Origin: Sphingomonas cannabina | Lineage (GTDB): Bacteria > Pseudomonadota > Alphaproteobacteria > Sphingomonadales > Sphingomonadaceae | Reading direction: 5' to 3' | DNA: 64,000 nucleotides | NCBI RefSeq assembly: GCF_021391395.1 | Contig: NZ_CP090059.1 | Span: 682,001 to 746,000 of the forward strand | Shown here: piece by piece, positions 2,029 through 49,643 of the stretch | Numbering within the stretch: the first letter of the stretch is position 1 | Layout of the letters: each line of letters starts with the position of its first letter | Notes under the pieces: model-generated | The model's input: the letters and a program-made list of their open reading frames with translations, nothing else | Told to the model about the DNA's origin: nothing | Database searches by the model: none | Made by a program: the position numbers and the translations under genes

Positions 2029-3234
2029 ATGAACTACGAGACGAAGATGGTGGGCGGCGAAGCGGGCGGCTATGCGGCCTTGCCCGGCGAGGTCGCGCCG
2101 CCGCGGCGGCGGCGCTGGCTGATCATCGCCGCGATCGTCGCGATCGTCGTCGTGCTCGCCGCGGCCGCGATGTTCATGCGCGGCGGCGCTGCCGAAACGT
2201 CCAAGGGTAAGGCCGGCGCTGCCAACAGCCAGATCCCGACCGTCACGGTCGCAGTCCCGGGCCGCTCGTCGATCCGCAACGTCATCGCCGGCACCGGCAG
2301 CCTCGCCGCCAAGCGCGACATGCCGGTCGGTGTCGCCGGCGAGGGCGGCATCGTGACGCGCGTGTTGGTCGAGCCCGGCCAATGGGTCAACGCCGGCCAG
2401 GTGCTGGCGACGGTCGACCGTTCGGTGCAGGTGCAGACCGCCGATTCGCTCGCCGCGCAGATCCGCGTCGCCCGCGCCGATGCCGAGCTCGCCCAGTCCA
2501 ACTATGATCGCGCCAAGCAGCTCGTCAGCAACGGCTTCGTATCCAAGGCCGATCTCGACCAGAAGGCGGCGACCCGCGACGGCGCGGTCGCGCGCGTCCG
2601 GGCGGCCGAGGCCAGCTACAAGGAAGCGCTGGCGCGCAACCACCGGCTCGACATCCGCGCGCCCACCGCGGGCCTGATCCTCACCCGTCAGGTCGAGCCG
2701 GGCCAGATCGTCAGCTCCGGCAGCGGCACGCTGTTCCGCATGGCGATGGACGGCAAGATGGAGATGCGCGCCCAGCTGAGCGAGGCCGACATCCAGCGGC
2801 TCCACGTCGGCATCCCGGCCGAGGTGCGCCCGGTCGGCACCGACAAGGTGTTCCGCGGCACCATCTGGCAGATCTCGCCGGTGATCGACCCGCAGACGCG
2901 CCAGGGCATCGCCCGCATCGAGCTCGCCTATGATCCGGCGCTGCGTCCGGGCGGCTTCGCCTCGGTCCAGGTCGTCTCCGGTGCGGCGGTGGCGCCGCTG
3001 CTGCCGCAGTCCGCGGTTCAGAGCGACGTCACCGGCAATTTCGTCTATATCATCGACGACAAGAATCAGGCGGTACGGCGCAACGTGACCACCGGCGAGG
3101 TCTCGGACGAGGGCATTGCCATCACCAGCGGGCTTTCGGGCACCGAGCGGGTGGTGCTGACCGCCGGCGCGTTCCTCAATCCGGGGCAGAAGGTCATTCC
3201 GGTCCTCAAGAAGGCGGAGCAGGCGAAACCATGA
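2029..3234 (+). CDS. RND efflux periplasmic adaptor (membrane fusion protein)
   Basis: About 401 residues. A basic stretch (PPRRRRW) is followed by one membrane anchor (IIAAIVAIVVVLAAAAMFM), then the HlyD/AcrA plan: lipoyl half-motif with VEPGQWVNAGQVLATVD, an alpha-hairpin rich in Ala/Gln (LAAQIRVARADAELAQSNYDRA), the second lipoyl half (IRAPTAGLILTRQVEPGQIV), and a beta-barrel/membrane-proximal part ending NPGQKVIPVL. It should bridge the inner-membrane pump to an outer-membrane channel. The stop overlaps the permease start (ATGA, 3231-3234), so the two are co-translated. GTG 2020 is an alternative start with a G-rich ribosome site upstream. No outer-membrane factor gene is adjacent. Confidence 0.92.
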   Translation: MNYETKMVGGEAGGYAALPGEVAPPRRRRWLIIAAIVAIVVVLAAAAMFMRGGAAETSKGKAGAANSQIPTVTVAVPGRSSIRNVIAGTGSLAAKRDMPVGVAGEGGIVTRVLVEPGQWVNAGQVLATVDRSVQVQTADSLAAQIRVARADAELAQSNYDRAKQLVSNGFVSKADLDQKAATRDGAVARVRAAEASYKEALARNHRLDIRAPTAGLILTRQVEPGQIVSSGSGTLFRMAMDGKMEMRAQLSEADIQRLHVGIPAEVRPVGTDKVFRGTIWQISPVIDPQTRQGIARIELAYDPALRPGGFASVQVVSGAAVAPLLPQSAVQSDVTGNFVYIIDDKNQAVRRNVTTGEVSDEGIAITSGLSGTERVVLTAGAFLNPGQKVIPVLKKAEQAKP

Positions 3235-6200
3235 GCTTCCGGAACATCTCGGCCTGGTCGATCCGGAACCCTGTTCCGCCGATCGTCCTCTTCCTGTTCC
3301 TCACCATCGCCGGGCTGGTCAGCTTCTGGCGGATGGACGTCAACAACGATCCGGACATCGATTTCCCGATCGTGTGGATCTCGATCTCGCAGCCGGGTGC
3401 GGCGCCGAGCGAGCTCGAGACGCAGATCACGCAGCAGGTCGAATCGGCGGTGCGCAGCCTTCAGGGCATCGACGAGATCAACTCGACGGTGACCGAGGGC
3501 CAGTCGCAGACGATCGTCCAGCTCGACATCGGCATGCCGGTCGACCGCGCGGTCGAGGACGTGCGCAGCGCCATCCAGCAGATCCGCGGCAACCTGCCCG
3601 ACGGCATCCTGGAGCCGCAGATCGGCCGCGTCGACACGTCGAGCGACAATGACGTCGCCAGCTTCACCGCGCTCGCGCCCGACATGACGGTCGAGCAATT
3701 GAGCTGGTACATCGACAACACGGTGCGCAAGGAGCTGCTGTCGATCTCCGGCATGTCGGCGGTGAACCGCAACGGCGGCGTCGACCGCGAGATCCGGGTG
3801 ATTCTCCACCCCGACAAGCTCCAGTCCTATGGCCTCACCGCCAGCCAGGTGAACCAGCAGCTTCGCCAGGTGAATCTCGACGCGGCGGGCGGCAAGGCGG
3901 AGATTTCCGGCTTCGAGCAGGCGGTGCGCGTGCTCGGCAACGCCAAGGATGCCTATACGCTCGGCCAGACCCAGATCGCGGTGGGCGGCGGGCGCACGAT
4001 CCGCCTGTCCGACATCGCCGACGTCAAGGACCTCTACGCCGAGCAGAAGAGCTTTGCGCGCTTCAACGGCAACCAGGTGATCTCGTTCGACATCCAGCGC
4101 GCCAAGGGCGCGTCGGACGTCACCGTGTTCCACGCCGCCGAGAAGAAGCTGAAGGAGCTCGAGAAGACCAATCCCAAGGTCCATTTCGAGCTCCTGTTCA
4201 ACCAGAGCAAATACGCCGAGGAGCAGTTCCACACCGCCATGGAGGCGATGGTGGAGGGCGCGGTGCTGGCGGTGCTGGTGGTGCTGCTGTTCCTGCGCGA
4301 CTGGCGCGCGACGATCATCTCGGCGCTGGCGATCCCGCTGTCGGCGATCCCGAGCTTCTGGTTCATGGACCTGATGGGCTTCACGCTCAACCAGATGACC
4401 TTGCTCGCGCTCAGCCTGGTCGCGGGCGTGCTGGTCGACGACGCGATCGTCGAGATCGAGAACATCGTGCGCCACATGCGCATGGGCAAGTCGGCCTATC
4501 AGGCCTCGATCGACGCCGCCGACGAGATCGGCATCGCCGTGCTCGCCACCACCATGTCGATCGTCGCGGTGTTCCTGCCGGTCGGCCTGATGCCGGGCAT
4601 CTCGGGCCAGTTCTTCAAGAATTTCGGCCTCACCGTCGTCGCGTCGGTGCTGATGAGCCTGGCGGTCGCGCGCATGGTGACGCCGATGGTCGCGGCCTAT
4701 TTCCTCAAGGCGCACGGCCATGCCGAGCACGCCGGCGGACCGGTGATGGGCGGCTACCTCAAGCTGCTCAGCTGGACGCTGCGCCACCGCTGGTCGGCGG
4801 TGGTCGCGGGCATGATCGCGCTCGGGCTCACCATCTGGCTCGCCTTCTCGGGCGTGATCCCGATGACCTTCCAGCCCGAGCAGGACCAGGACGACGTCAC
4901 CGCGACGATCGAGATGGTGCCGGGCACCTCGCTCGAGCAGACCCAGGCGGTGGTGACGCGCGTCGCCAACCTGCTGCGCCGCGAGCCGGCCGTGGAGAGC
5001 GTCTATGAGCGCGCCTTCGTCGGCAACGGCCGCGTGATCGCGATGCTCAAGAAGAAGCGCGACGAGAAGAGCACGCAGTTCGAGCGCCGGCTGGCGCCCG
5101 AGCTGCTCAAGATCCCCGATGCGCGCGTCGGCTTCCGCTCGCAGTTCGGCTGGGGATCGAGCGGTCGCGACCTCACCATCACGCTCGGCGGCGAGGATCC
5201 CAAGCTCTTGACCCAGACCGCGCTCACGCTGGTCAACCAGATGTCGGGCATGAAGCAGGTGGTGGCGCCGCGCATCGCCGGCGACCTCAACCGGCCGGAG
5301 ATCGTGATCCGCCCGCGGCTCGACCTGGCGGCCGATCTCGGCGTGACCACGGCGGCGCTCAGCAACGCGATCCGCATCGCGACGCTCGGCGACATCGACC
5401 AGAACAGCGCGAAGTTCTCGCTGTCGGATCGCCAGATCCCGATCCGCGTGGCGTTGCAGGAAAGCGCGCGGGCGCGGCTGTCGACGATCAAGAACCTGCC
5501 GGTGGCGACCGAGAACGGCGGTTCGGTGCCGCTCGGCGTCGTCGCCGACATCGGCTTCGGCGCCGGCCCGACCAAGATCGAGCGTCTCAACCTGCAGCGC
5601 CGCCTGATCGTGGGCGCCGACCTCGCCCAGAACCCGGCGACCGGCAAGCCCTATGTCTCGGGCGACGTGATGAAGCAGATCCACGCGCTGCCGATCATGA
5701 AGAACCTGCCGGTGGGTGTCGGCGAGCTCACCGTCGGCCAGGCCAAGTGGCAGGCGGAGATGATCACCAACTTCCTGATCGCGCTGGCGTCGGGCGTGTT
5801 CCTGGTGTTCGCGGTGTTGGTGCTGCTCTACCGCAGCTTCATGTCGCCGCTGGTCAACATGGGCTCGCTGTTGCTGGCGCCGTTGGGCGGCCTGATCGCG
5901 CTGGCGATCGTCGGGGAGCCCTTGTCGATGCCGGTGCTGATCGGCGTGCTGATGCTGTTCGGCATCGTCGCCAAGAACTCGATCCTGCTGATCGACTTCG
6001 CGCTGGAGGAGATGAACAAGGGCGTCGACATGTTCACCGCGCTGGTCGACGCCGGGCACAAGCGCGCCCAGCCGATCGTGATGACCACGGTGGCAATGGT
6101 CGCCGGCATGGTGCCGACCGCGCTGTCGCTGTCCGGCGACTCGTCGTGGCGCGCGCCGATGGGCACGACGGTGATCGGCGGCCTGATCCTCTCGACCGTG

Positions 6201-6389
6201 CTGACGCTGGTGATCGTGCCGGCGAGCTTCAGCCTGGCAGTGGGGATCGAGCGCTGGATCGGGCCGAAGCTCGGCCGCCGCCTGCTCACCTATCGTCCGG
6301 GCGACGACGGCAAGCCGGTGATCGAGCATCAGCCGGGCGGACGCATCGGGCACAAGCCCGGCGACGGCGAGATTCAGCCGGCGGAATGA
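3231..6389 (+). CDS. RND efflux pump permease (AcrB/HAE type)
   Basis: This 1,052-residue protein has the family length and plan: first membrane segment ([17 protein letters not shown]), large periplasmic loop, a cluster of segments including [11 protein letters not shown] around residue 402 (the paired aspartates of the proton relay in TM4), a second periplasmic loop, and a final cluster with [13 protein letters not shown] near residue 914. It uses the proton gradient to extrude drugs or other small molecules as a trimer. It overlaps the adaptor by 4 bp. The substrate cannot be read from the sequence. The 3' end runs directly into a large palindromic element. Confidence 0.95.
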
Positions 6390-6390
6390 G

Positions 6391-6522
6391 AGTCTGTTTG
6401 TAAAGGCGGCACCGGCCCGCTCCCCCACCCGGCCACCCAACGGCAGTATCTTATGGGTGGCCGGGTGGGGGAGCGGGCCGGTGCCGCCGAAATGCGCCGT
6501 CAGGCGCATTTCCAAACAGACT
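6391..6522. repeat. Composite palindromic element (nested inverted repeats)
   Basis: An outer 10-bp inverted repeat (AGTCTGTTTG at 6391-6400, complement at 6513-6522) encloses a perfect 35-bp inverted repeat (6405-6439 with 6454-6488, 14-nt loop) and a smaller hairpin (AAATGCGCC at 6490-6498 with 6503-6511). Folded, it makes a stem carrying two arms. It begins 2 bp after the permease stop and could end transcription, but it is much larger than a normal terminator and has terminal inverted repeats like a non-coding mobile (REP or MITE-like) element. Confidence 0.75.
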
Positions 6523-6536
6523 ATAAGAGATGCTTG

Positions 6537-6562
6537 AACAATCCCCGGTTTCGGGGATTGTT
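6537..6562 (+). terminator. Second hairpin downstream of the palindromic element
   Basis: A perfect 11-bp stem (AACAATCCCCG 6537-6547 with 6552-6562) with a GTTT loop. It may end transcription from the efflux operon or act in the leader of the DUF445 gene. It overlaps the first in-frame ATG (6530) of that gene, which argues for the downstream start at 6569. Confidence 0.5.
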
Positions 6563-6568
6563 TCGGGC

Positions 6569-7840
6569 ATGACGCTCGCGCCGCGCGCTCTCAACCTCAA
6601 CGGAAGCGCGGCGCCGCCTGCGCTGAGGCGGATGCGGCTGGTCGCGACCGGGCTGTTGGTGGCGATGGCCGGCGTCTATCTCGCCGCGCGCTATTTCCAG
6701 CCGGTGCATCCGGCGATGGGTTTCGTCCGCGCCTTTGCCGAGGCGGCGATGGTCGGCGGCCTCGCCGACTGGTTCGCGGTGACGGCGCTGTTCCGCCATC
6801 CGCTCGGGCTGCCGATTCCGCACACGGCGATCATTCCCAGGAACAAGGATCGCATCGCCGGCGCGCTCGCCGCGTTCCTGCGCGACAATTTCCTGATCCC
6901 GCGCGTGGTGGCGCGGCGGATGCAGCGGGTCGACCTCGCCGGTGCGGCGGGGCGCTGGCTGGCCAATCCTTCGCCATCGGGAGAGGGCAAACTGCGGCGC
7001 GGTGCGAGCCGGCTCGCCGCCGACGTGCTCGAATCGCTCGACCAGGAGCGATTGGGCGGCATGGTACGCGGCGCGCTGGCGGGGCGGCTGCGCGCGCTCG
7101 ACGTGGCGCCGCTGCTGGGACAGGCGCTTGCCGCGGCGATCGCCGACAACCGCCATGTGCCGCTGCTCGACGGCATCATCCGCTGGGCAGGGCGCGTGGT
7201 CGAGGCGAACGAGCCGATCGTCCGCGACATGGTGCGCCAGCGCGCCGGCGCGGTGCTGCGCTGGACCGGGCTCGACGCGACGCTGGCCAACGCGATCCTG
7301 GACGGCCTCACCAAGCTGGTCACCGAGATGGCCGAGAACCCGGACCATCCCCTGCGTGAAAAGGCGGAGGAGGGGCTGGCGAAGCTCGCCGACGATCTCC
7401 AGCACGATCCGGCGATGCAGGAGCGGGTGGCGGCGTTCAAGGACGAGCTGCTCGACAATCCCGCGCTCGCCGATTGGTGGCAGGGCGTGTGGGAGCAGCT
7501 GCGCGCGGCGATGCTCAAGGCCGCGCGCGATCCCGATGCGGTGATCGCCGGCCGCTTCGGCGAGGCGCTGCGCCAGCTCGGCACCACGCTGCAGCAGGAC
7601 GCGAAGCTCGCCGCGACGATCAACCGCTTCGCCCGCCGCGCTGCGGTCGGCACGGCGGCCGACTATGGCGACGCAATCGTGCGGCTGGTGTCGGACACGA
7701 TCCGCGGCTGGGACGCGCGTACCATCACCGGGCGGCTCGAGAATGCCGTCGGCCGCGACCTCCAGTATATCCGCATCAACGGCACGCTCGTCGGTGGTCT
7801 GGTGGGTGTGCTGATCCACACGGTGGATGTGGCGCTGTGA
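6569..7840 (+). CDS. DUF445 domain membrane protein
   Basis: About 423 residues. An N-terminal membrane helix (LVATGLLVAMAGVYLAARYF) is followed by the DUF445 signature region (VGGLADWFAVTALFRHPLGLPIPHTAIIPRNKDRIA), a long helical region of amphipathic repeats, and a C-terminal membrane segment (LVGGLVGVLIHTV). This matches the YjiN/DUF445 family of inner-membrane proteins, whose function is unknown. ATG 6569 is chosen over ATG 6530 because the 13 extra codons lie in a perfect hairpin and the family starts close to the membrane helix. It stands alone between two repeat elements. Confidence 0.88.
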   Translation: MTLAPRALNLNGSAAPPALRRMRLVATGLLVAMAGVYLAARYFQPVHPAMGFVRAFAEAAMVGGLADWFAVTALFRHPLGLPIPHTAIIPRNKDRIAGALAAFLRDNFLIPRVVARRMQRVDLAGAAGRWLANPSPSGEGKLRRGASRLAADVLESLDQERLGGMVRGALAGRLRALDVAPLLGQALAAAIADNRHVPLLDGIIRWAGRVVEANEPIVRDMVRQRAGAVLRWTGLDATLANAILDGLTKLVTEMAENPDHPLREKAEEGLAKLADDLQHDPAMQERVAAFKDELLDNPALADWWQGVWEQLRAAMLKAARDPDAVIAGRFGEALRQLGTTLQQDAKLAATINRFARRAAVGTAADYGDAIVRLVSDTIRGWDARTITGRLENAVGRDLQYIRINGTLVGGLVGVLIHTVDVAL

Positions 7841-39508: not shown

Positions 39509-42019
39509 TCACTCATATCGCAGCGCATGGACCGGATTGGTCTGCGCCACCCGCCAGGCGTGGGCGGCGATCGTCGCGATCGCGATTCCCAGCGCCAGCC
39601 CGCCCGCGAGCAGGAACGGCAGGGGGCTGAGGCTGATGCGGCTCTCGAATCCGTTCAGCCAATCGCGCATCGCCCACCAGGCGATCGGCCAGGCGATCAG
39701 GTTGGCCACCAGCACCGGCCGGCTGAACTGCCAAACCAGCAGCCGCACGATGTCCTGCGTCCGCGCGCCCAGCACCTTGCGGATGCCGATCTCCTTGGTG
39801 CGCCGCTCGGCGGTGAAGGCGGCGAGGCCGAACAGCCCGAGGCAGCCGATCACCACCGCGAGGATGGCGAACATGCCGAACAGCTGCGCGCGCTGCTCGT
39901 CGCCGTTGTAGAGGTCATGGACGATGTCCTCCGCATGGCGCGCCTCGAACGGCACGTCGGGGGCGAGCCGCTTCCAGATCGCCTCGACACGCGCGCGGAT
40001 CACGTCGGGCGCCACGCCTTGGTAGCGCACGAGCAGGTTGTTGTAGCCGACCGTCTGGTAATAATAGAGGATCGGCTGCAGCGGCTCGCGCACCGTACGG
40101 TAGCGCACGTCGCTGACGACGCCGACCACCGTCGCCGGCAGCCAGCCGTATTTCGCGGTGTCGGTGAGGCCGGTCTGGAGCGGCTGGCCGATCGCCGCCT
40201 GGGCACTGGCGAAACCGAGGCGCTTCGCTGCCGATTCGGACAGCAGCACGTTGACGCCGCGCGCCACCAGGGCGCGCTCGGCCGCATCGTCGGGCGGCGA
40301 CGGCGTGGTCGCGTCATCCATCGGATTGGCTTCGGAGAAGTTGCGCCCGGCGATCAGCTTCATGCCGAGCGCGTCGATCACGCCGGGATCCATGCCGTAG
40401 AAGCCGATGTCGCTCTCGGTGGTGGCACCCGGACGCTTCGCGCTGGTCATCGAATTGTTGCCGGTAGCGACTCCGATCGTCGAGCGGCCGACGGCGGTCA
40501 CGCCGGGAATGCCGCGGACCTCCTGGACCAGTGTCTTCTGGATGCGTTCGATCTTGGGCGTGCTGAGGCGCCGCACCTGGAGCAGCCCCTCGCGCTTGTA
40601 GCCCTGATCGGCCGAGCGCGCGTACATCGTCTGCGCATAGATGACGGAGGTGCACACGATCAGTCCGATCGACACTGCGAACTGCCCGATCACCAGGATC
40701 GAGCGCAGCCGCCCGCTTCCCTCGGCATCCGCCGCCGACTTGTTGGCCTTGAGCACGCGCGCGGGCTGGAAGCGCGACAGGTAGAAGGCGGGATAGAGCC
40801 CGCCGGCGAGCCCGACCACGACGATGAGGCCGAGGATCGGCAGCAGCATGCCGTCGCCGCCGAAATAATGCACGCTCATGTCGGTATCGAGGAAACCGTT
40901 GAGCGCCGGCGTCGCGAGCTCGACCAGCGCGAGCGCGATCAGCATCGCGATCGCCGCCACCAGCACCGATTCCCCCACGAACTGCGTGACGAGCTGGCGT
41001 CGGGTCGCGCCCAGCACCTTGCGCAGCGCCACCTCGCGGGCGCGCTGGCTGGCGCGCGCGGTGGCGAGGTTGGTGAAGTTAACGCAGGCGATGCCCAGGA
41101 TCAGCAGCGCGATGACGATGAAGCTGATCATCGTCGCCTTGTCGCCGGTGGATCGCTGCGCCCCGACCTGCGCCTCGCCGAGGTGGATGTCGCGAAGCGG
41201 GGTGAGGTGCCAATCCTGGACATCGCCCTGGTTGGTGCGCTTGCCGTCGGTGATGTCGTCGGGGATGTTGCGCTTCTCCCAGGCGGGGAACTGCGCCTCG
41301 ATCGCCTTGGGGTCCACGCCGGGGCGCAGCTTGGCGTAGATGAAGCCGTTCTGGTTGCCCCAGCCGGTGACGGTCCCCGGCGACCGCGCGAAATAGGTGT
41401 CGGGATCGAAGCGCGCCACCAGGTCCATCGGCACGGTCGTGTTCTTGGGCAGGTCCTTGAACACGCCCGTCACGCGATAATCCGCCTCCATGTCGCCGCT
41501 GTTCAGCGTCAGCGTCTGGCCGACCGGATTGGCCGTGCCGAAGCGCTTGGCCGCCTCGGTCTCGCTCAGCACGACGGCGTGCGGATCGTCCAGCACATGC
41601 GCCGGATCGCCGCGGACGAAGGGTATCTGCAGGATGTCGAAGATCGGCCCGTCGACCAGCAGCGCGTTCTCGGGCCGGGTCGCCTGGCCGTCCTGGATCA
41701 CCGTGACCGGCGGCGTCGTGACGTAGACCACCTGCTCGAACTGCGGGAAATCCTTCTTGAGCGCGCGGCCGGCGGCGATGCTCGTCACCTGCAGCTTCAT
41801 CTCCTCGCCGCCGGTCTCGGTCGCCTTGTAGAAGTCCTGGAGCTGGAAGGAACGGTCGGCGTCCTTCATCCAGGCGTTGTAGCTGAACTCGTAGCGCACG
41901 AAGTTCAGGATCAAGAGGCACGCCGCGATGCCGAGCGACAGCCCGAAGATGTTGATGAAGGCGTAGGTCTTGTTCTTGGCGAGCGACCTGAGGCCGACGA
42001 TCACGTAATTGCGCCACAT
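39509..42019 (-). CDS. FtsX/MacB-type ABC exporter permease (distal copy)
   Basis: An 836-residue permease with two half-modules. Each has a MacB periplasmic core domain and FtsX membrane segments: TM1 YAFINIFGLSLGIAACLLILNFV, a large periplasmic domain, FVNFTNLATARASQRAREVALRKVLGATRRQLVTQFVGESV, LVVVGLAGGLYPAFYLSRFQP, a second core domain, and AAFTAERRTKEIGIRKVLGARTQDIVRLLVWQFSRPVLVAN. Eight helices are expected. Ten base pairs separate it from the paralogous permease upstream. It is the last gene of the operon. Such permeases export peptides or lipids rather than importing solutes; the substrate is unknown. Confidence 0.9.
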   Translation of the reverse strand: MWRNYVIVGLRSLAKNKTYAFINIFGLSLGIAACLLILNFVRYEFSYNAWMKDADRSFQLQDFYKATETGGEEMKLQVTSIAAGRALKKDFPQFEQVVYVTTPPVTVIQDGQATRPENALLVDGPIFDILQIPFVRGDPAHVLDDPHAVVLSETEAAKRFGTANPVGQTLTLNSGDMEADYRVTGVFKDLPKNTTVPMDLVARFDPDTYFARSPGTVTGWGNQNGFIYAKLRPGVDPKAIEAQFPAWEKRNIPDDITDGKRTNQGDVQDWHLTPLRDIHLGEAQVGAQRSTGDKATMISFIVIALLILGIACVNFTNLATARASQRAREVALRKVLGATRRQLVTQFVGESVLVAAIAMLIALALVELATPALNGFLDTDMSVHYFGGDGMLLPILGLIVVVGLAGGLYPAFYLSRFQPARVLKANKSAADAEGSGRLRSILVIGQFAVSIGLIVCTSVIYAQTMYARSADQGYKREGLLQVRRLSTPKIERIQKTLVQEVRGIPGVTAVGRSTIGVATGNNSMTSAKRPGATTESDIGFYGMDPGVIDALGMKLIAGRNFSEANPMDDATTPSPPDDAAERALVARGVNVLLSESAAKRLGFASAQAAIGQPLQTGLTDTAKYGWLPATVVGVVSDVRYRTVREPLQPILYYYQTVGYNNLLVRYQGVAPDVIRARVEAIWKRLAPDVPFEARHAEDIVHDLYNGDEQRAQLFGMFAILAVVIGCLGLFGLAAFTAERRTKEIGIRKVLGARTQDIVRLLVWQFSRPVLVANLIAWPIAWWAMRDWLNGFESRISLSPLPFLLAGGLALGIAIATIAAHAWRVAQTNPVHALRYE

Positions 42020-42029
42020 GGGATGGGTC

Positions 42030-44489
42030 CTACTCGTAGCGGAGGGCGTGGATGGGGTTCATGCGCGCGACGCGCAGCGCATGGCCGGCGACGGTCGCGA
42101 CCGCGATGGCGAGCGCCAGCAGGCCGGCGATCGCGAACGGCCCCGGCCCCAGCGCAATGCGCGCGTCGAAGCCGTTGAGCCAGTCGCGCATCGCCCACCA
42201 GGCGGCGGGCCAGGCGATCAGGTTGGCGAGCACGACGGGCTTGGAGAATTGCCAGACGAGCAGCCGGACGATGTCGCGCACCGTGGCGCCGACCACCTTG
42301 CGGATGCCGATCTCCTTGGTGCGCCGCTCGGTCGCGAAGGCGGCGAGGCTGTAGAGGCCGAGGCAGGCGATCACCACCGCCAGCGCGGAGAAGGCGGCGA
42401 ACAGTGCGCCGCGCGCGCGCTCGGCCGCGTAGAGCTCGCGGACGATGTCATCGGCGAAGCGCGCCTCGAACGGGATCTCGGGCTCGAACCTGCGCCAGAC
42501 CTTGTTGAGGCCCGCCATCACCTCACCCGGCCGGGCGCCGGCATAGCGGACCAGCACCTGGCTGGTGTGCTCGGGATCATAGACATAGACGATCGGATCG
42601 ACCGCATCGCGCGCGGTACGGAACCTTGTGTCCTCGACCACGCCGACGATCGTCGAAGGGACCATCGGGAAGGCAGTGAACGCGATCTCGAAGCGCTGCC
42701 CGACGGCCGCCTCGGGCGTGCGATAGCCGAGCTTGGCCGCGGCGGAGCGGTTGATCACCACGTTGACGCCGCGCGCGACGAGATCGGCGGGGGTCGCGCC
42801 GGCGATCCGGTCGGCGGCGAAGCGGTCGCCGAGCAGGCGGCCGGCGAGCCGCCCGATGCCCATCGTGCTGAGGAAGTCCGCGTCGACGCTGTAGAATCCC
42901 ATCGTGACCCATGGTGCACCGGCGCCGCCGCGCATCAGCCGGACCGGGGTTTCGGGGGCGCCCAGCTCCAGGCCGGCGCGGCCGACGCCGGTGACGCCGG
43001 GAACCGCGAGCATCAGGGGACGCGCCGCCTCATATTCGGCGCCCTGGGTGAAGCGCCAGGCGTTGGTGATCTGGATCAGCCCGTCGCGGCGGTAGCCGGG
43101 ATCGACGCGCTCGATGAAGCGCGTCTGCGACCAGATCACCGCGGTGCTCGCGATCAGCCCGATCGCGACCGCGAACTGGACGACGACGAGCACCGCGCGC
43201 AGCCGGCCGCTCCCCGGCGTCTCCGCCGCGGCCCGGCCGGTCCGCAGCACCTGCGCCGGCCGGAACCGGCTGAGGTACAATGCCGGATAGAGGCCGCCCG
43301 CCAGCCCGGTGACGGCGAACAGCCCGAGCGCGGGCAGCAGCATCCCGCGCTCGCCGAGATAGGTGACGCGCATCTCGGCGCCCATCAGATGGCCGATCCA
43401 CGGCGTCGCCAGCTCGGCGATGGTGAGCGCGATCAGCATCGCCGCGGCGGCGATCAGCAGGCTCTCGCCGAGGAACTGGACGATCAGCTGGCCGCGGGTC
43501 GCGCCGAGCACCTTGCGCAGCGCCACCTCGCGCGCCCGCTGCGTCGCGCGTGCGGTGGTGAGGTTGACGAAGTTCATCACCGCCATGCCCAGCGTCAGCA
43601 GCGCGACGATCGCGAAGGTGGCGAGCGCGCGCGGATCGCCGGCCGGCGTGAGCGCCTTCCCCTGCGCCCGGCCGAGATGGACGTCGCCGAGCGGCACCAG
43701 ATGGAAGTCGAACGCATCGGCGATCGATATCGGCTTGCCCTCGAACATTCCGGGCGGCCACGCGCGTTTCTTCCAGGCGGGAAGCGCGGCGTTCACCGCG
43801 GCGGCATCAGCGCCGGCGCGCAGCTTGACGTAATGCTGCTGGTCATTGTTGCCCCAGCTGCGGCTCTCGGGCGGCATCTGGTTGATGTCGCGGCGGAAGA
43901 TGATGCCCAGGCGCAGGCTGGTGTTCTTCGGCAGGTCGCGCAGCACGCCGGTGACCCGATGATCGCGCTTGCCGCCCCCGGCGCCGAGGCTGAGCAGCTT
44001 GCCCAGCGCGTTGGCGGTGCCGAACTGACGGATCGCCTCGCTCTCGGTCAGCACGATCGAGTTGACGTCGGGAAACGCGGTGGCGGCCGAGCCTTGGGCG
44101 AAGGGCAGCGCGAAGACCTTGAAGAACTCGGGATCGACGGTGGTCGCGTCGATGAACATCGGCTGGCCGTCGTGCTCGGTGACGGTCTTGCCCGCGGCGA
44201 GCGAGGTCACCGCCTCGACCTGCGAGAAGCCGGCGAGCCCCTCGTACAGCGGAAAGGGAGAGGTTTGCGAATGGACCTCCGCCATGTTGGGCGGACGGAC
44301 CGTCGTCTGGACCTGGTAGACTCGGTCCACGTCGCGCAGCCAACTGTCGTAGCTCCGCTCGTAATTGACATAGGCGAGGATCAGCAGCGACCCGGCCAGC
44401 CCGAGCGCGAGGCCGCCGATGTTGACCGCTGCATAGGCCGGGCTGCGCGCCAGCGTGCGAAACGCCACGGTCAGATAGTTGCGCCACAT
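42030..44489 (-). CDS. FtsX/MacB-type ABC exporter permease (proximal copy)
   Basis: An 819-residue paralogue of the next gene, with the same double-module plan: MWRNYLTVAFRTLARSPAYAAVNIGGLALGLAGSLLILAYVNY, a periplasmic core domain, ATQRAREVALRKVLGATRGQLIVQFLGESLL, and TERRTKEIGIRKVVGATVRDIVRLLVWQFSKPVVLANL. The two share the same start motif (MWRNY), and much of the membrane part, while the periplasmic domains have diverged. This suggests an old tandem duplication and perhaps a heterodimer. Start ATG 44489 follows a GGGGAGAGGA ribosome site and lies 26 bp after the ATPase stop. Confidence 0.9.
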   Translation of the reverse strand: MWRNYLTVAFRTLARSPAYAAVNIGGLALGLAGSLLILAYVNYERSYDSWLRDVDRVYQVQTTVRPPNMAEVHSQTSPFPLYEGLAGFSQVEAVTSLAAGKTVTEHDGQPMFIDATTVDPEFFKVFALPFAQGSAATAFPDVNSIVLTESEAIRQFGTANALGKLLSLGAGGGKRDHRVTGVLRDLPKNTSLRLGIIFRRDINQMPPESRSWGNNDQQHYVKLRAGADAAAVNAALPAWKKRAWPPGMFEGKPISIADAFDFHLVPLGDVHLGRAQGKALTPAGDPRALATFAIVALLTLGMAVMNFVNLTTARATQRAREVALRKVLGATRGQLIVQFLGESLLIAAAAMLIALTIAELATPWIGHLMGAEMRVTYLGERGMLLPALGLFAVTGLAGGLYPALYLSRFRPAQVLRTGRAAAETPGSGRLRAVLVVVQFAVAIGLIASTAVIWSQTRFIERVDPGYRRDGLIQITNAWRFTQGAEYEAARPLMLAVPGVTGVGRAGLELGAPETPVRLMRGGAGAPWVTMGFYSVDADFLSTMGIGRLAGRLLGDRFAADRIAGATPADLVARGVNVVINRSAAAKLGYRTPEAAVGQRFEIAFTAFPMVPSTIVGVVEDTRFRTARDAVDPIVYVYDPEHTSQVLVRYAGARPGEVMAGLNKVWRRFEPEIPFEARFADDIVRELYAAERARGALFAAFSALAVVIACLGLYSLAAFATERRTKEIGIRKVVGATVRDIVRLLVWQFSKPVVLANLIAWPAAWWAMRDWLNGFDARIALGPGPFAIAGLLALAIAVATVAGHALRVARMNPIHALRYE

Positions 44490-44515: not shown

Positions 44516-45196
44516 TCAGGCGGCGCGGCGCTGTTCCTGCAGGATGCGGCCGTCGAGCATGTTGATGACGCGGCTGGCGTAGTCGGCGTGCGCCGGCGAG
44601 TGCGTCACCATCACGATCGTCGAGCCCTCGGCGTTGAGGCCCTGGAGCATCCGCATCACCTCCTCGCCATGATGCGTGTCGAGGTTGCCGGTCGGCTCGT
44701 CCGCCAGGATGAGCTTGGGCTCGGCGACCAGCGCGCGGGCGACGGCGACGCGCTGTTGCTGGCCGCCCGACAGCTGGCTCGGGCGGTGGCGCGCGCGGTG
44801 GGCGATGCCGACGCGGTCCATCACCTGCTCGACGCGGCGCTTGCGCTCGGCGGCGGGGACGTCGTGGTAGAGCAGCGCGAGCTCGACGTTCTCGCGCACC
44901 GACAGCTCGTCGACCAGGTTGAAGCTCTGGAAGATGAAGCCGATGTTCTGCTTGCGCACCTCGGCGAGCCGGGCCTCGCTCAGTCCCGCGACCTCCTGGC
45001 CGGCGAAGACGTAGGATCCGCTGGACGGGCTGTCGAGCAGCCCCATCAGGTTGAGCAAGGTCGACTTGCCGCAGCCCGACGGGCCCATCACCGCGACGAA
45101 CTCGCCCTCGGCGATGTCGAGGTCGATGCCGTCGAGCGCGGTCGTCTCGACGGTGTCGGTGCGGTAGACCCGCGAGAGCGCACGCATGCTGAGCAT
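44516..45196 (-). CDS. MacB/LolD-type exporter ATPase
   Basis: A 226-residue ABC ATPase: Walker [11 protein letters not shown]-loop [18 protein letters not shown], signature [15 protein letters not shown], Walker [13 protein letters not shown] and switch region [11 protein letters not shown]. This is the MacB/LolD/FtsE class that pairs with FtsX-type permeases. Two starts are possible: ATG 45214, which overlaps the adaptor stop as ATGA, and ATG 45196, which has AAGGA six bases upstream and gives the usual N-terminus ([13 protein letters not shown]). It supplies energy for both permeases downstream. Confidence 0.92.
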
Positions 45197-45210
45197 TGCT
45201 TGTCCTTTCG

Positions 45211-46503
45211 TCATTGGCTGAGGTCCAGCCGGTCCTTGTCGGTGAGGCCGGTATAGGGGGAGGTGAGGATGCGCTCGCCCGGCTGGAGCCCATCGAGCAC
45301 CTCGATCGTCTCGGCGTTGCGGCGGCCGAGGCGGACCTGGCGCTTGATCGCCGAGCGGCCGTCGGGGGCGACCACGAATACCCAGTTGCCGCCGGTGTCG
45401 TTGTAGAAGCTGCCGTTGGGCACCAGCACCGCCGGCGCGGGATCGCCGAGGGTGAGGCGCGCCTGCAGCGTCTGGCCGCGCTGGATGTTGGCGGGCTCGG
45501 CGCCGATGAACTGCAGGTCGATCTGGAACTGCCCGTTCTGGACCTGCGGATAGATTTTGGCGACGCGCGCCTGATACTGGCGCCCGCCCGACTCGATCGT
45601 GGCGCGCTGACCGAGCTGGACGCGGCCGAGGTAGAATTCCTCGACGCCGGCCATCAGCTTGTTGCGTCCCGGGCTATCGATCTGGCCGATCCGCTCGCCG
45701 CGCTGCATCGACTGGCCGACCTGGATCGAGAAGCCGGAGAGCTGCCCTGCGACCGGTGCGCGCAGGTTCAGCGAATCGAGATTGGTGCGGGCAAGCGCGA
45801 GGCCCGACTGCATCGACTGCGCGGCCGCCTGCTGCTGGCTGAGCTGGCCGACTTGCAGCCGCTCGTCCGTGGCCTGGCTGCGCTTGAGCACCGCGACGCG
45901 GCGGCGCTGGTATTCATAGGTGTCGCGGGTGTCGGCGAACTGCTTGCCCGGCACGAAGCCGCGTGCGGCGAGCGGCGCCTCGCGCTCGTACTGGCGCTTG
46001 GCCTTGGCGGCGTCGAGCTCGGCCTCGAGCACCGCGCGCTCGTTGGCAAGGCGGGTCTGCGCGAGCGCCAGCTCCTGGCTGCGCATGTTGTTGATCTGCT
46101 GCTCGACCTCGGTCTGGCGGGCGAGGGTGGAGAGCTGGAGCTCGGCGTTGGAGAGCACCGCGATCATCTGACCCTTGGCGACGGTGGCGCCGTCCTCGAC
46201 CAGCAGCTTCTCGACGCGCCCGCCCTCGACGGCGTCGAGATAGACGGTGAGCAGCGGCGTGACCCGCGCGCGCAGCGGAATGAAATCCTCGAAGGTCCCG
46301 CGCGTCACCGGCGAGATCGTCACGCGGTCGGCGGCGAGCGTCTGGCTGCTCGACGTCGGGGCGAACCACCAGAACAGCAGGATCGCGCTCGCCAGCGCCG
46401 CCACGCCGGCGGCGATCTTGATGCGCGGCGACAGCCCCTTGCGCTCGACGACGCGGTCCATGCCGCTGCCCGAGACCGGCGCTTCGCTCTTCTCGTTCTT
46501 CAT
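45211..46503 (-). CDS. MacA/HlyD-like periplasmic adaptor of the exporter
   Basis: About 430 residues: one membrane anchor (IKIAAGVAALASAILLFWW), then adaptor domains: VEGGRVEKLLVEDGATVAKGQMIAVLSN (lipoyl half), a long coiled coil (LARQTEVEQQINNMRSQELA), LRAPVAGQLSGFSIQVGQSM (second half) and a C-terminal barrel. The open frame begins at ATG 46527, with ATG 46518 and 46503 also in frame. A sigma-54 promoter at 46531-46546 predicts transcription from about 46520, which excludes 46527, so 46503 (MKNEKSEAP) is preferred with moderate confidence. First gene of the adaptor-ATPase-permease-permease operon. Confidence 0.85.
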   Translation of the reverse strand: MKNEKSEAPVSGSGMDRVVERKGLSPRIKIAAGVAALASAILLFWWFAPTSSSQTLAADRVTISPVTRGTFEDFIPLRARVTPLLTVYLDAVEGGRVEKLLVEDGATVAKGQMIAVLSNAELQLSTLARQTEVEQQINNMRSQELALAQTRLANERAVLEAELDAAKAKRQYEREAPLAARGFVPGKQFADTRDTYEYQRRRVAVLKRSQATDERLQVGQLSQQQAAAQSMQSGLALARTNLDSLNLRAPVAGQLSGFSIQVGQSMQRGERIGQIDSPGRNKLMAGVEEFYLGRVQLGQRATIESGGRQYQARVAKIYPQVQNGQFQIDLQFIGAEPANIQRGQTLQARLTLGDPAPAVLVPNGSFYNDTGGNWVFVVAPDGRSAIKRQVRLGRRNAETIEVLDGLQPGERILTSPYTGLTDKDRLDLSQ

Positions 46504-46530
46504 CCGCACGACGCTCATGGCGGTCATTCA

Positions 46531-46546
46531 AGCAATCCTTGTGCCA
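46531..46546 (-). promoter_or_regulatory. Sigma-54 (-24/-12) promoter of the exporter operon
   Basis: On the minus strand TGGCAC (46546-46541), AAGGA, TTGCT (46535-46531) matches the RpoN consensus TGGCAC-N5-TTGCW at every position. Predicted transcription start about 46520. Two enhancer-like dyads lie 68-104 bp upstream, and the adjacent regulator is a sigma-54 activator. Confidence 0.85.
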
Positions 46547-46587
46547 GCGCCGATCACAAGGCGATATCGGTCATATGTCGGCAAAAG

Positions 46588-46624
46588 TGTCCGCATCCGG
46601 ACAGTCGCTGTCCGGGTGCGGACA
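46588..46624. promoter_or_regulatory. Tandem enhancer dyads (UAS) for the exporter promoter
   Basis: Two perfect dyads TGTCCG-N4-CGGACA lie at 46588-46603 and 46609-46624. Their centres are 21 bp apart, two helical turns, and they sit about -68 to -104 from the predicted start. Together they form an 18-bp inverted repeat with a single mismatch. This is the layout expected for an NtrC-type activator. Confidence 0.8.
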
Positions 46625-46645
46625 CCGGCCGGCGCGCCTGCACGG

Positions 46646-46783
46646 TCACGCGGCGATGCTCGGAACCGCGAGCGCGGCAGTCTGGACCTTGGCCGGCAGC
46701 GGCGCCGACGAAGCGAGGGTGAGCGCCGCGGTGGCGACGAAGGCGCCGAGCACGCTCAGCAGGCGAAAGGTCGAGAGGGTCAT
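46646..46783 (-). CDS. Small secreted-peptide-like protein (45 residues) under sigma-54 control
   Basis: MTLSTFRLLSVLGAFVATAALTLASSAPLPAKVQTAALAVPSIAA (written here only as its three parts: basic start MTLSTFR, hydrophobic core LLSVLGAFVATAALTLA, and a mature part of about 20 residues rich in Ala and Pro). It looks like a Sec signal peptide with a short mature peptide. AAGGAGAAG lies 6-7 bases before ATG 46783. A sigma-54 type promoter lies 35 bases upstream of the start codon, with two activator dyads before it. It points the same way as the exporter operon and could encode a signal, substrate or accessory factor of it; no family is recognised. Confidence 0.7.
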   Translation of the reverse strand: MTLSTFRLLSVLGAFVATAALTLASSAPLPAKVQTAALAVPSIAA

Positions 46784-46828
46784 GATGCTTCTCCTTGGCG
46801 GCGGCACGATGCCGACGGGCAGGAACAG

Positions 46829-46844
46829 AGCATCGAGCGTGCCA
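46829..46844 (-). promoter_or_regulatory. Sigma-54 (-24/-12) promoter of the small-peptide gene
   Basis: Minus strand TGGCAC (46844-46839), GCTCG, ATGCT (46833-46829): one mismatch to TGGCAC-N5-TTGCW, with the essential GG and GC kept at the right spacing. Predicted start of transcription about 46818, 35 nt before ATG 46783. Two dyads of the exporter-promoter type lie upstream. Confidence 0.72.
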
Positions 46845-46899
46845 ACCGCGGTTTTCCGCCGTTTTCGCTGCTCATGGTGCAATTGGCACGCGAATTGAT

Positions 46900-46936
46900 T
46901 GTCCGATATCGCACAGTTTCTGTACGAGAGCGGACG
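46900..46936. promoter_or_regulatory. Tandem enhancer dyads (UAS) for the small-peptide promoter
   Basis: TGTCCG-ATAT-CGCACA (46900-46915, one mismatch to the dyad) and TGTACG-AGAG-CGGACG (46921-46936, two mismatches) have centres 21 bp apart, the same spacing as the pair at 46588-46624. They lie about -82 to -118 from the predicted start, and also just before the regulator's ATG (46940), so autoregulation is likely. Confidence 0.68.
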
Positions 46937-46939
46937 ATC

Positions 46940-48311
<1,372 letters not shown>

Positions 48312-48322
<11 letters not shown>

Positions 48323-49643
48323 TCGCCGCTTCACCGTCGGTCTCGCGGCCTGGGTCGCCGCACTGTTCGTCGCGCTGCTCGCGTTCATCGCGGCGATCGC
48401 GACCGAGGGGCTGGGCGCCGCGCGGATCGTTGCCGGCATCCTGGTGATCGCCGCCGCCTGGGGACTGTGGAACCATGTCTCGCGCACCAACGTGGCGGTG
48501 GCGCGTTTCCTGGAGGCGCTGCGCTTCGGCGATTTCGGCGCACGGTTCGAGCGGCAAGGCGACTCCGGCTTCCAGGAACTCGGTCAGGCCTTCGACAATG
48601 CGCTCGCCGCGCTGCGCGCCGACCGCGACAAGGCGGCCGACGAGCTTCGTTTCCGCGAGGCGCTGGTCGACGACATGCCGATCGCGCTGCTCACCGTGGA
48701 TGAGGTGGGGCGGGTCGCGCCGGGCAACAAGGCGGCACGCTCGCTGTTCCGCCACGTCCACGGCGCACGGCCGGAGGATTATGCGGTCTACGGCAGCACT
48801 TTCGCCAAGCGCCTCGGCGACGACGGTGCGGCGCGCGAGGAGGTGCTGCTGCTCAGCCTCGACGGCCGCCCTCAGCGCGCGCTGGTGCGCTCGGCAGTGC
48901 TGGAACGGCTCGGTGCGCGCGTGCGCGCGGTGACGGTGCAGCCGATCCAGGGCACGCTCGACGCGGTCGAGATGGCGGCACAGACCGACATCGTCCGCGT
49001 GCTGACCCATGAGATCCTCAATTCGCTGACCCCGGTGACCTCGCTCGCCTCGACCGCCGCCGCGCTGCTGGAGGGCCAGCCGCCTGCCGCCACCGCCGAG
49101 CTGGCCGACGCCCGCATCGCCGTGAGCACCCTCGCGCGCCGTGCTGAGGGGCTGCAGCATTTCGTCGAGAGCTATCGCGCGATCGCGCGGCCGCCGGTGA
49201 TCGAGCGGACCGGCTTCGCGGCGCTGCCATGGGCGGAGGAGCTTGCCCGCCTCTTCGCAGCCGACTGGCCGGCGGTGCCGCTGGCACTGTCGGTGACGCC
49301 GCCGGGGCTGCAGCTCGACGCCGATCGCAACATGCTGGCGCAGGTGCTGATCAACCTTCTCCGCAACGCCGCCGAGGCGACCTCCGCGACGCGCAGCGAC
49401 CCGTCGGTGGCGCTGCGCATCTTCACCGAACGCGAAGGCCGCGCCGGCATCGAGATCGAGGACAACGGCCCCGGAGTGCCCGACGGGCTCAAGGGCGACA
49501 TCTTCCTGCCCTTCTTCACTACCCGCAAGACCGGCACCGGCGTCGGCCTCAACCTCGCCCGCCAGATCGTGATCGCGCATGGCGGCACGATCGACATCGC
49601 CGACGCGCCGCAGGGCGGGGCGCTGTTCCGGATCCTGCTGTAG
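48312..49643 (+). CDS. Sensor histidine kinase, partner of the NtrC-type regulator
   Basis: A 443-residue kinase: two N-terminal helices (LAAWVAALFVALLAFIAAIAT and ARIVAGILVIAAAWGLWN) with almost no periplasmic loop, a HAMP-like linker, a PAS-like domain (LVDDMPIALLTVDEVGRVAPGNKAARSLF), the H-box VLTHEILNSLTPV (His about residue 232), N-box INLLRNAAEA and G-boxes EDNGPGVPDG and GTGVGLNLARQI. The lack of a periplasmic sensor suggests that it detects a membrane or cytoplasmic signal, such as envelope damage or the state of the exporter. It is translated with the regulator (11-bp overlap). Confidence 0.92.

Follow-up and report, generated by a model that had tools for sequence, protein, structure and literature searches.

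What controls transcription from the intergenic region that separates an NtrC-type regulator gene from a divergent ABC exporter operon in Sphingomonas cannabina, and which genes answer to it? The window (the whole stretch of 64,000 nucleotides that was analysed) had been read before from its letters alone. This sequence-only reading had proposed that two sigma-54 promoters, each with a pair of dyads 21 bp apart, tie a small peptide gene and the exporter to one two-component system. Judged from the features listed below, the region is probably a switch for sigma-54-dependent transcription that the divergent kinase/regulator pair operates.

Paired dyads and putative sigma-54 elements

39509..42019, minus strand: MacB_PCD/FtsX permease 2
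42030..44489, minus strand: MacB_PCD/FtsX permease 1
44516..45214, minus strand: ABC transporter ATPase
45211..46518, minus strand: HlyD/RND-type periplasmic adaptor; start set by its kept N-terminus, the frame could open at 46527
46531..46546, minus strand: P1, predicted -24/-12 element upstream of the exporter operon (TGGCACAAGGATTGCT); agrees with the consensus at 11 of 12 positions
46588..46624, no strand: putative P1 enhancer, two perfect TGTCCG-N4-CGGACA dyads (46588-46603, TGTCCGCATCCGGACA; 46609-46624, TGTCCGGGTGCGGACA), centres 21 bp apart
46646..46783, minus strand: small ORF of 45 codons with hydrophobic N-terminus and Shine-Dalgarno sequence AAGGAG
46829..46844, minus strand: P2, predicted -24/-12 element TGGCACGCTCGATGCT before the 45-codon ORF; 11 of 12 consensus positions
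46884..46899, plus strand: P3, sigma-54-like element TGGCACGCGAATTGAT facing the regulator gene; C of the -12 replaced by A
46900..46936, no strand: putative P2 enhancer, two weaker dyads (46900-46915, TGTCCGATATCGCACA; 46921-46936, TGTACGAGAGCGGACG), centres 21 bp apart; overlaps the predicted P3 start
46940..48322, plus strand: NtrC-type response regulator (GAFTDA), divergent from the exporter
48312..49643, plus strand: histidine kinase whose membrane N-terminus is short; its gene overlaps that of the regulator

Both minus-strand -24/-12 elements of the sequence-only reading were recovered to the base, and both dyad pairs upstream of them were re-read at the positions given. P1 and P2 each carry the GG of the -24, the GC of the -12 and consensus flanks, consistent with sigma-54 promoters, and the genome encodes RpoN. 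Transcription starts were predicted 12 nt past the -12 C, with a precision of a base or two, at 46520 for P1 and 46818 for P2. The dyad centres accordingly lie at about -76/-97 and -90/-111, within the distance of about 70-120 bp that had been estimated. Each dyad spans 16 bp, and the half-sites of a pair start at 0, 10, 21, and 31 bp, i.e. on one helical face. The divergent gene was correctly taken to encode an NtrC-type activator accompanied by its kinase: the protein scored above the cut-offs for the receiver (PF00072), Sigma54_activat (AAA+, PF00158), and HTH_8 (Fis-type helix-turn-helix, PF02954) domains.

The sequence-only reading had held the repeated spacing to be unlikely by chance and had suggested a genome scan. 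The paired-dyad pattern was searched with up to three mismatches in the 4.39-Mb genome, and the backwards pattern served as control. Four places were found: P1 (no mismatch), P2 (one), and two distant ones (two and three), so that P1 and P2 are the best two places of the whole genome. The backwards pattern was found nowhere, and none of 200 dinucleotide shuffles of the intergenic region scored as high as the real sequence for either the module or the pair. Together with the presence of the module in all orthologous loci (see below), these results speak for a spacing that is not due to chance. The loose pattern TGGCAY-N6-TGCW alone was not enriched genome-wide (29 places versus 32 for the backwards control), and a single -24/-12 match therefore means little. 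The weight of the case rests on the combination of dyad pair and -24/-12 element and on its conservation.

Conservation and promoter architecture among relatives

Orthologous loci were picked by regulator homology alone in 60 relatives, 36 of the same genus and 24 of the same order. A regulator orthologue was present in 10 of the 36 same-genus and 12 of the 24 same-order genomes. At a regulator identity of at least 53%, these 22 genomes gave 23 loci, which with the window make up the 24 loci counted here. G030 holds two copies of the whole cluster, with a kinase frame of 217 aa in one (L046, G030:C23) and of 443 aa in the other. Two loci were left out of the counts: L063 has no adaptor match, and L062 (G002, 2805-7371 in the orientation of the regulator) is a more distant regulator-kinase/exporter cluster in which the regulator is 42-47% identical, one dyad is present, and no clear -24/-12 element was called.

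The dyad pair and a -24/-12 element were found in the window and in all 23 orthologous loci. With spacings of 20-22 bp allowed, the best module score of each of the 24 loci was reached by none of 200 shuffles; without a constraint on spacing, 34 of the 42 distances between sites that fell within 10-45 bp measured 20-22 bp. In a three-locus alignment the motifs stood out as islands of identity. The regulator gene diverges from the adaptor gene and is followed by the kinase gene in 23 of 23 loci; the kinase frame is short in L046 and is cut by the end of the stretch fetched in L057. ATPase and permease genes come next, with the exceptions of L061 (no permease scored) and L057 (a permease piece only), and the sequences of L042 and L053 stop inside the adaptor. 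Loss of the motifs in relatives with the same genes had been named as the observation that would speak against the sequence-only reading, and a dyad pair with a -24/-12 element was retained in all 23 loci.

Among the best 80 of 557 named wider relatives, which comprised many Bacteroidota as well as Alteromonadales, Kordiimonas, Acidobacteria, and others, 23 had a strong dyad pair when spacings of 18-24 bp were allowed, and 18 of 25 pairs were spaced at exactly 21 bp. In each of five shuffles, none of the 80 had a strong pair. No pair was found with the consensus used in 57 of the 80; the code has therefore drifted or differs there.

The 12 same-order loci contain one module, directly before the adaptor gene, and no second one. 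In the 12 same-genus loci (window included), dyads lie near both ends of the region. The -24/-12 element of P2 was present in all 12 of these, whereas the exporter-proximal dyads were followed by such an element in only eight. No usable one was found in L042-L045, and in L043-L045 the proximal dyads abut the adaptor start codon, so the exporter of these four loci would need to be read from P2. An explanation that is possible, if unlikely, is that P2 alone works generally, with a small-ORF leader and the exporter as one operon, the proximal dyads as a second enhancer or a remnant, and a small ORF devoid of protein function. The constancy of P2 agrees with this, as does the small ORF itself, which is poorly conserved in sequence and reduced to a remnant of 24 codons in L044. 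The retention of P1 in eight of the 12 same-genus loci and the position of the single same-order module argue against it, and so does the codon-position variation of the small ORF: position 3 varied more than position 2 in six of six pairs, position 1 at least as much as position 3 in three of the six. We read this pattern as a modest sign of coding.

The small ORF matched no Pfam or NCBIfam family, and among 5.8 billion proteins searched it had two matches (96 and 89% identical). Same-genus loci usually hold a fast-evolving hydrophobic small ORF along with the two dyad pairs. Related ORFs occupy the same place in L039 (15 of 31 residues identical) and L041 (11 of 31), and those of the other same-genus loci are hydrophobic and hardly alignable to that of the window. 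The proposal that exporter and small peptide gene are both governed by one NtrC-type system is supported, with qualifications: the dyad pair and a -24/-12 element are present in all loci, four of the 12 same-genus loci lack the P1 -24/-12 element, and the small ORF is poorly conserved in sequence.

P3 had been overlooked in the sequence-only reading. It was found in the window and in 10 of 11 further same-genus loci (not in L048), always with TTGAT, and in none of the 12 same-order loci; TGGCAC-N5-TTGAT occurs once in the genome. We term it sigma-54-like because the C of the -12 is missing. Its predicted start (46910) falls inside the P2 dyads, and for this reason autoregulation of the regulator gene is proposed. 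A sigma-70 promoter was not found at the region by prediction. The kept ATCAA beside P3 was considered as an IHF site and rejected, the second half being missing when judged by eye against the consensus.

The kept N-terminus of the adaptor (MSVVRM and the like) begins at 46518, about +3 from P1. The adaptor start codon lies at +2/+3 also in L040, L041, L046, and L047 and further off in L039 (+18), L048 (+15), and L049 (+29). Sigma-54 elements with a start codon at +2/+3, which would give near-leaderless messages, were noted at 46518-46531 of the window and in L040, L041, and L043-L047.

Candidate targets elsewhere in the genome

One of the distant dyad pairs (genome positions 3501709-3501745) is followed 97 bp later by TGGCACGGGGGATGCA and then by the gene of a 94-aa protein with a signal-like N-terminus and two cysteines; the gene divergent from it is presumably infA-like. 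Homologues of the two-Cys protein were detected in 16 of the 32 genomes searched. A module precedes two tandem homologues in G004, and a weak one was seen in G021. Modules accompanied the homologue in three of the six genomes with this regulator versus none of the 10 without a close orthologue. The distant module before two-Cys homologues in the window genome and in a second genome appears, on sequence grounds, to represent a regulon in trans.

The same-genus dyad scan covered 31 of the 36 genomes (all except G007, G015, G019, G020, and G035). With up to two mismatches, five distant pairs were found in 11 regulator-bearing genomes, four of them with a -24/-12 element, versus one pair, without such an element, in 21 genomes lacking a close regulator orthologue. 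With 3-mismatch pairs added the contrast was weak, -24/-12 elements being present at four of 15 pairs versus one of 17. Individual pairs lay before other genes. In G006 (L185, 2477-2582) a dyad pair and TGGCCCGTCCCTTGCG precede a TonB-dependent receptor gene. In G003 (L184, 2424-2516) a dyad pair and TGGCACGCATCCTGCG point at pcm, with a tRNA-Cys gene between them on the other strand; beyond pcm lies what we take to be the end of a tolC gene (L189). Coregulation of an outer-membrane channel through the pcm module was rejected, as the tRNA-Cys gene intervenes and the search detected none at pcm in the other 15 of 16 genomes. A 1-mismatch pair in G004 (G004:C15) was also discarded as a target; it lies inside a coding region and has no -24/-12 element.

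Could another regulator, e.g. an exporter repressor, occupy the dyads and a different sigma-54 activator serve the -24/-12 elements? At E <= 0.001, the genome yields 17 matches to this type of regulator. Moreover, 15 of 20 two-Cys matches (L199-L218) have a -24/-12 element (at least 9 of 12 positions) within 160 bp upstream, many of them in genomes without this regulator, where other activators must therefore serve similar promoters. The dyad pair, however, was seen together with the gene of this regulator in all 24 loci examined, at a near-constant distance and in a placing typical of activators, and distant pairs with up to two mismatches occur mostly in genomes having this regulator. We consider a separate dyad-binding regulator improbable. 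Least probable of all is that the array before P1 acts mainly as an RNA hairpin that terminates or stabilises the transcript of the small ORF: the array does sit just past the small-ORF stop, folds at -28.6 kcal/mol in the window, and has spacers complementary at three or four of four positions in the window, L039, L041, L042, and L043, but no intrinsic terminator was called in 46400-47000, spacer complementarity is only 0-2 of 4 in L040 and L046-L049 and 1 to 4 in same-order arrays, where no ORF precedes the array, and dyads fold by symmetry anyway. An Rfam search over the window returned one tRNA, located elsewhere, and nothing at the intergenic region.

As to the two-Cys family itself, its small secreted-type proteins share the pattern C...TGS...C-K-T-R-x-x-W. 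Three of the five two-Cys genes without a -24/-12 element (L201, L205, L206) are the second of a tandem pair whose first gene has one.

Proposed mode of control and relation to known systems

The elements, synteny, conservation, domain content, and distant module read from the DNA argue for control by the divergent kinase/regulator pair, and from them we infer a course of regulator binding, sigma-54 transcription, and autoregulation. Dimers of the phosphorylated regulator would bind the neighbouring dyads of a pair along the same helical face, form an AAA+ ring, and contact sigma-54 polymerase at the -24/-12 element by looping. Opening of P1 would yield the exporter and opening of P2 the small hydrophobic peptide. 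Through the P2 dyads, which cover the P3 start, the regulator may tune its own gene, probably by repression, and a distant copy of the module would place at least one small two-Cys protein of the secreted type under its control. The sensor-regulator pair thus appears to use one conserved site pair to activate the exporter and the very small hydrophobic peptide, together with one or more small secreted proteins encoded at a distance.

The proteins agree with a MacB-type exporter. Permeases and ATPase scored above the Pfam cut-offs and the adaptor above those of HlyD_3 and TIGR01730; the cut-off of the MacB equivalog NF007826 was not reached. Of the named families listed, DarBCD, the darobactin exporter of NCBIfam, came closest to adaptor and ATPase. 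Assignment to it was rejected, since no score reached its cut-off: the adaptor scored 179.4 against 450, the ATPase 275.1 against 375, and the two permeases 99.4 and 60.3 against 700. For the regulator, the best NCBIfam model was TIGR02915 (PrsR, PEP-CTERM response regulator), and with 343.3 bits against a cut-off of 502.6 it was not accepted as PrsR; the window regulator adjoins an exporter. By simple hydropathy, all membrane segments of the kinases of the 24 loci lie within residues 1-58. At least two segments were seen in 20 loci and one in L041, L042, L058, and L061; the kinases of L046 and L057 are incomplete. No periplasmic (outer) sensor domain was evident by this measure, and for this reason the likeliest signal would be one perceived within the membrane or by way of the transporter. 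As regards signal and substrate, we infer that an envelope- or peptide-stress detoxification response is likeliest, a role suggested by family names and analogy.

Two kinds of system invite comparison. In ZraPSR-type envelope systems, an NtrC-type regulator and its kinase are accompanied by a divergent, sigma-54-driven small periplasmic protein. The window resembles them in its regulator/kinase pair and a divergent small target with a putative sigma-54 element; it differs in that the main target is an ABC exporter and in that the regulator gained 310.3 bits against the ZraR cut-off (NF007689) of 760, so it was not assigned to ZraR. In Bce-type peptide-antibiotic modules, an FtsX-type permease stands beside a kinase whose membrane N-terminus is short and which lacks an outer sensor domain, and the regulator is OmpR-type. 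The window kinase, with two close membrane helices and no outer sensor domain by simple hydropathy, likewise stands beside an FtsX-type permease, whereas the predicted output is sigma-54-dependent and NtrC-type, and a periplasmic adaptor is added. It is a tentative and rather unlikely suggestion that the system corresponds, in a Gram-negative organism, to the Bce-type detoxification modules but has a sigma-54 output. The kinase would then read the MacB-like exporter or the membrane state, and its NtrC-type partner, through a dyad-pair enhancer kept in several phyla, would fire the exporter and lineage-specific small secreted peptides serving as cargo or kinase feedback.

At the position of the GAFTGA loop, 14 of the 24 regulators, including that of the window, have GAFTDA, seven GAFTGA, and three GSFTDA. 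In the part available, PMC4641369 lists GAFTDA among variants that would retain activity, and the portion seen of PMC10714721 describes a pull-down with a GAFTDA regulator that did not recover RpoN. PMC12316311 (2025), as far as its consulted text goes, computed for Gammaproteobacteria, Opitutia, and Bacteroidia that sigma-54 promoters precede COG0577 FtsX/MacB-type permeases, a prediction described there as the first evidence for a link between sigma-54 and the permease. The same portion mentions neither an activator or its binding site nor a small peptide or Sphingomonas, and the activator pipeline described there retained only GAFTGA proteins, unlike the GAFTDA regulator of the window. In the open-access literature, we did not meet the activator, the paired operator, the distant targets, the small peptide, or P3, and found, among the matches listed, no paper joining sigma-54 with Sphingomonas or with an HlyD exporter. 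Among the matches listed there, those to the dyad letters as text all looked unrelated and those to darobactin plus RpoN held nothing relevant; the main text of PMC3162934 contained none of the six transporter or taxon words looked for.

Sigma-54 two-component control of an exporter is of a known kind; new here, as far as the open-access literature goes, are the specific operator code and the added small targets. The code (two dyads 21 bp apart plus a -24/-12 element) is a concrete one for an uncharacterised family of sigma-54 regulators beside MacB-like exporters, and the targets of this family can therefore be listed from sequence. The fast-evolving small secreted-type proteins, tied to the exporter by putatively shared control, offer a lead on exporter cargo or the kinase signal. 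The number of permease copies varies among the loci: two are present in the window (39509-44489) and L041, one in several same-genus loci, and three in L050, L051, and L054-L056.
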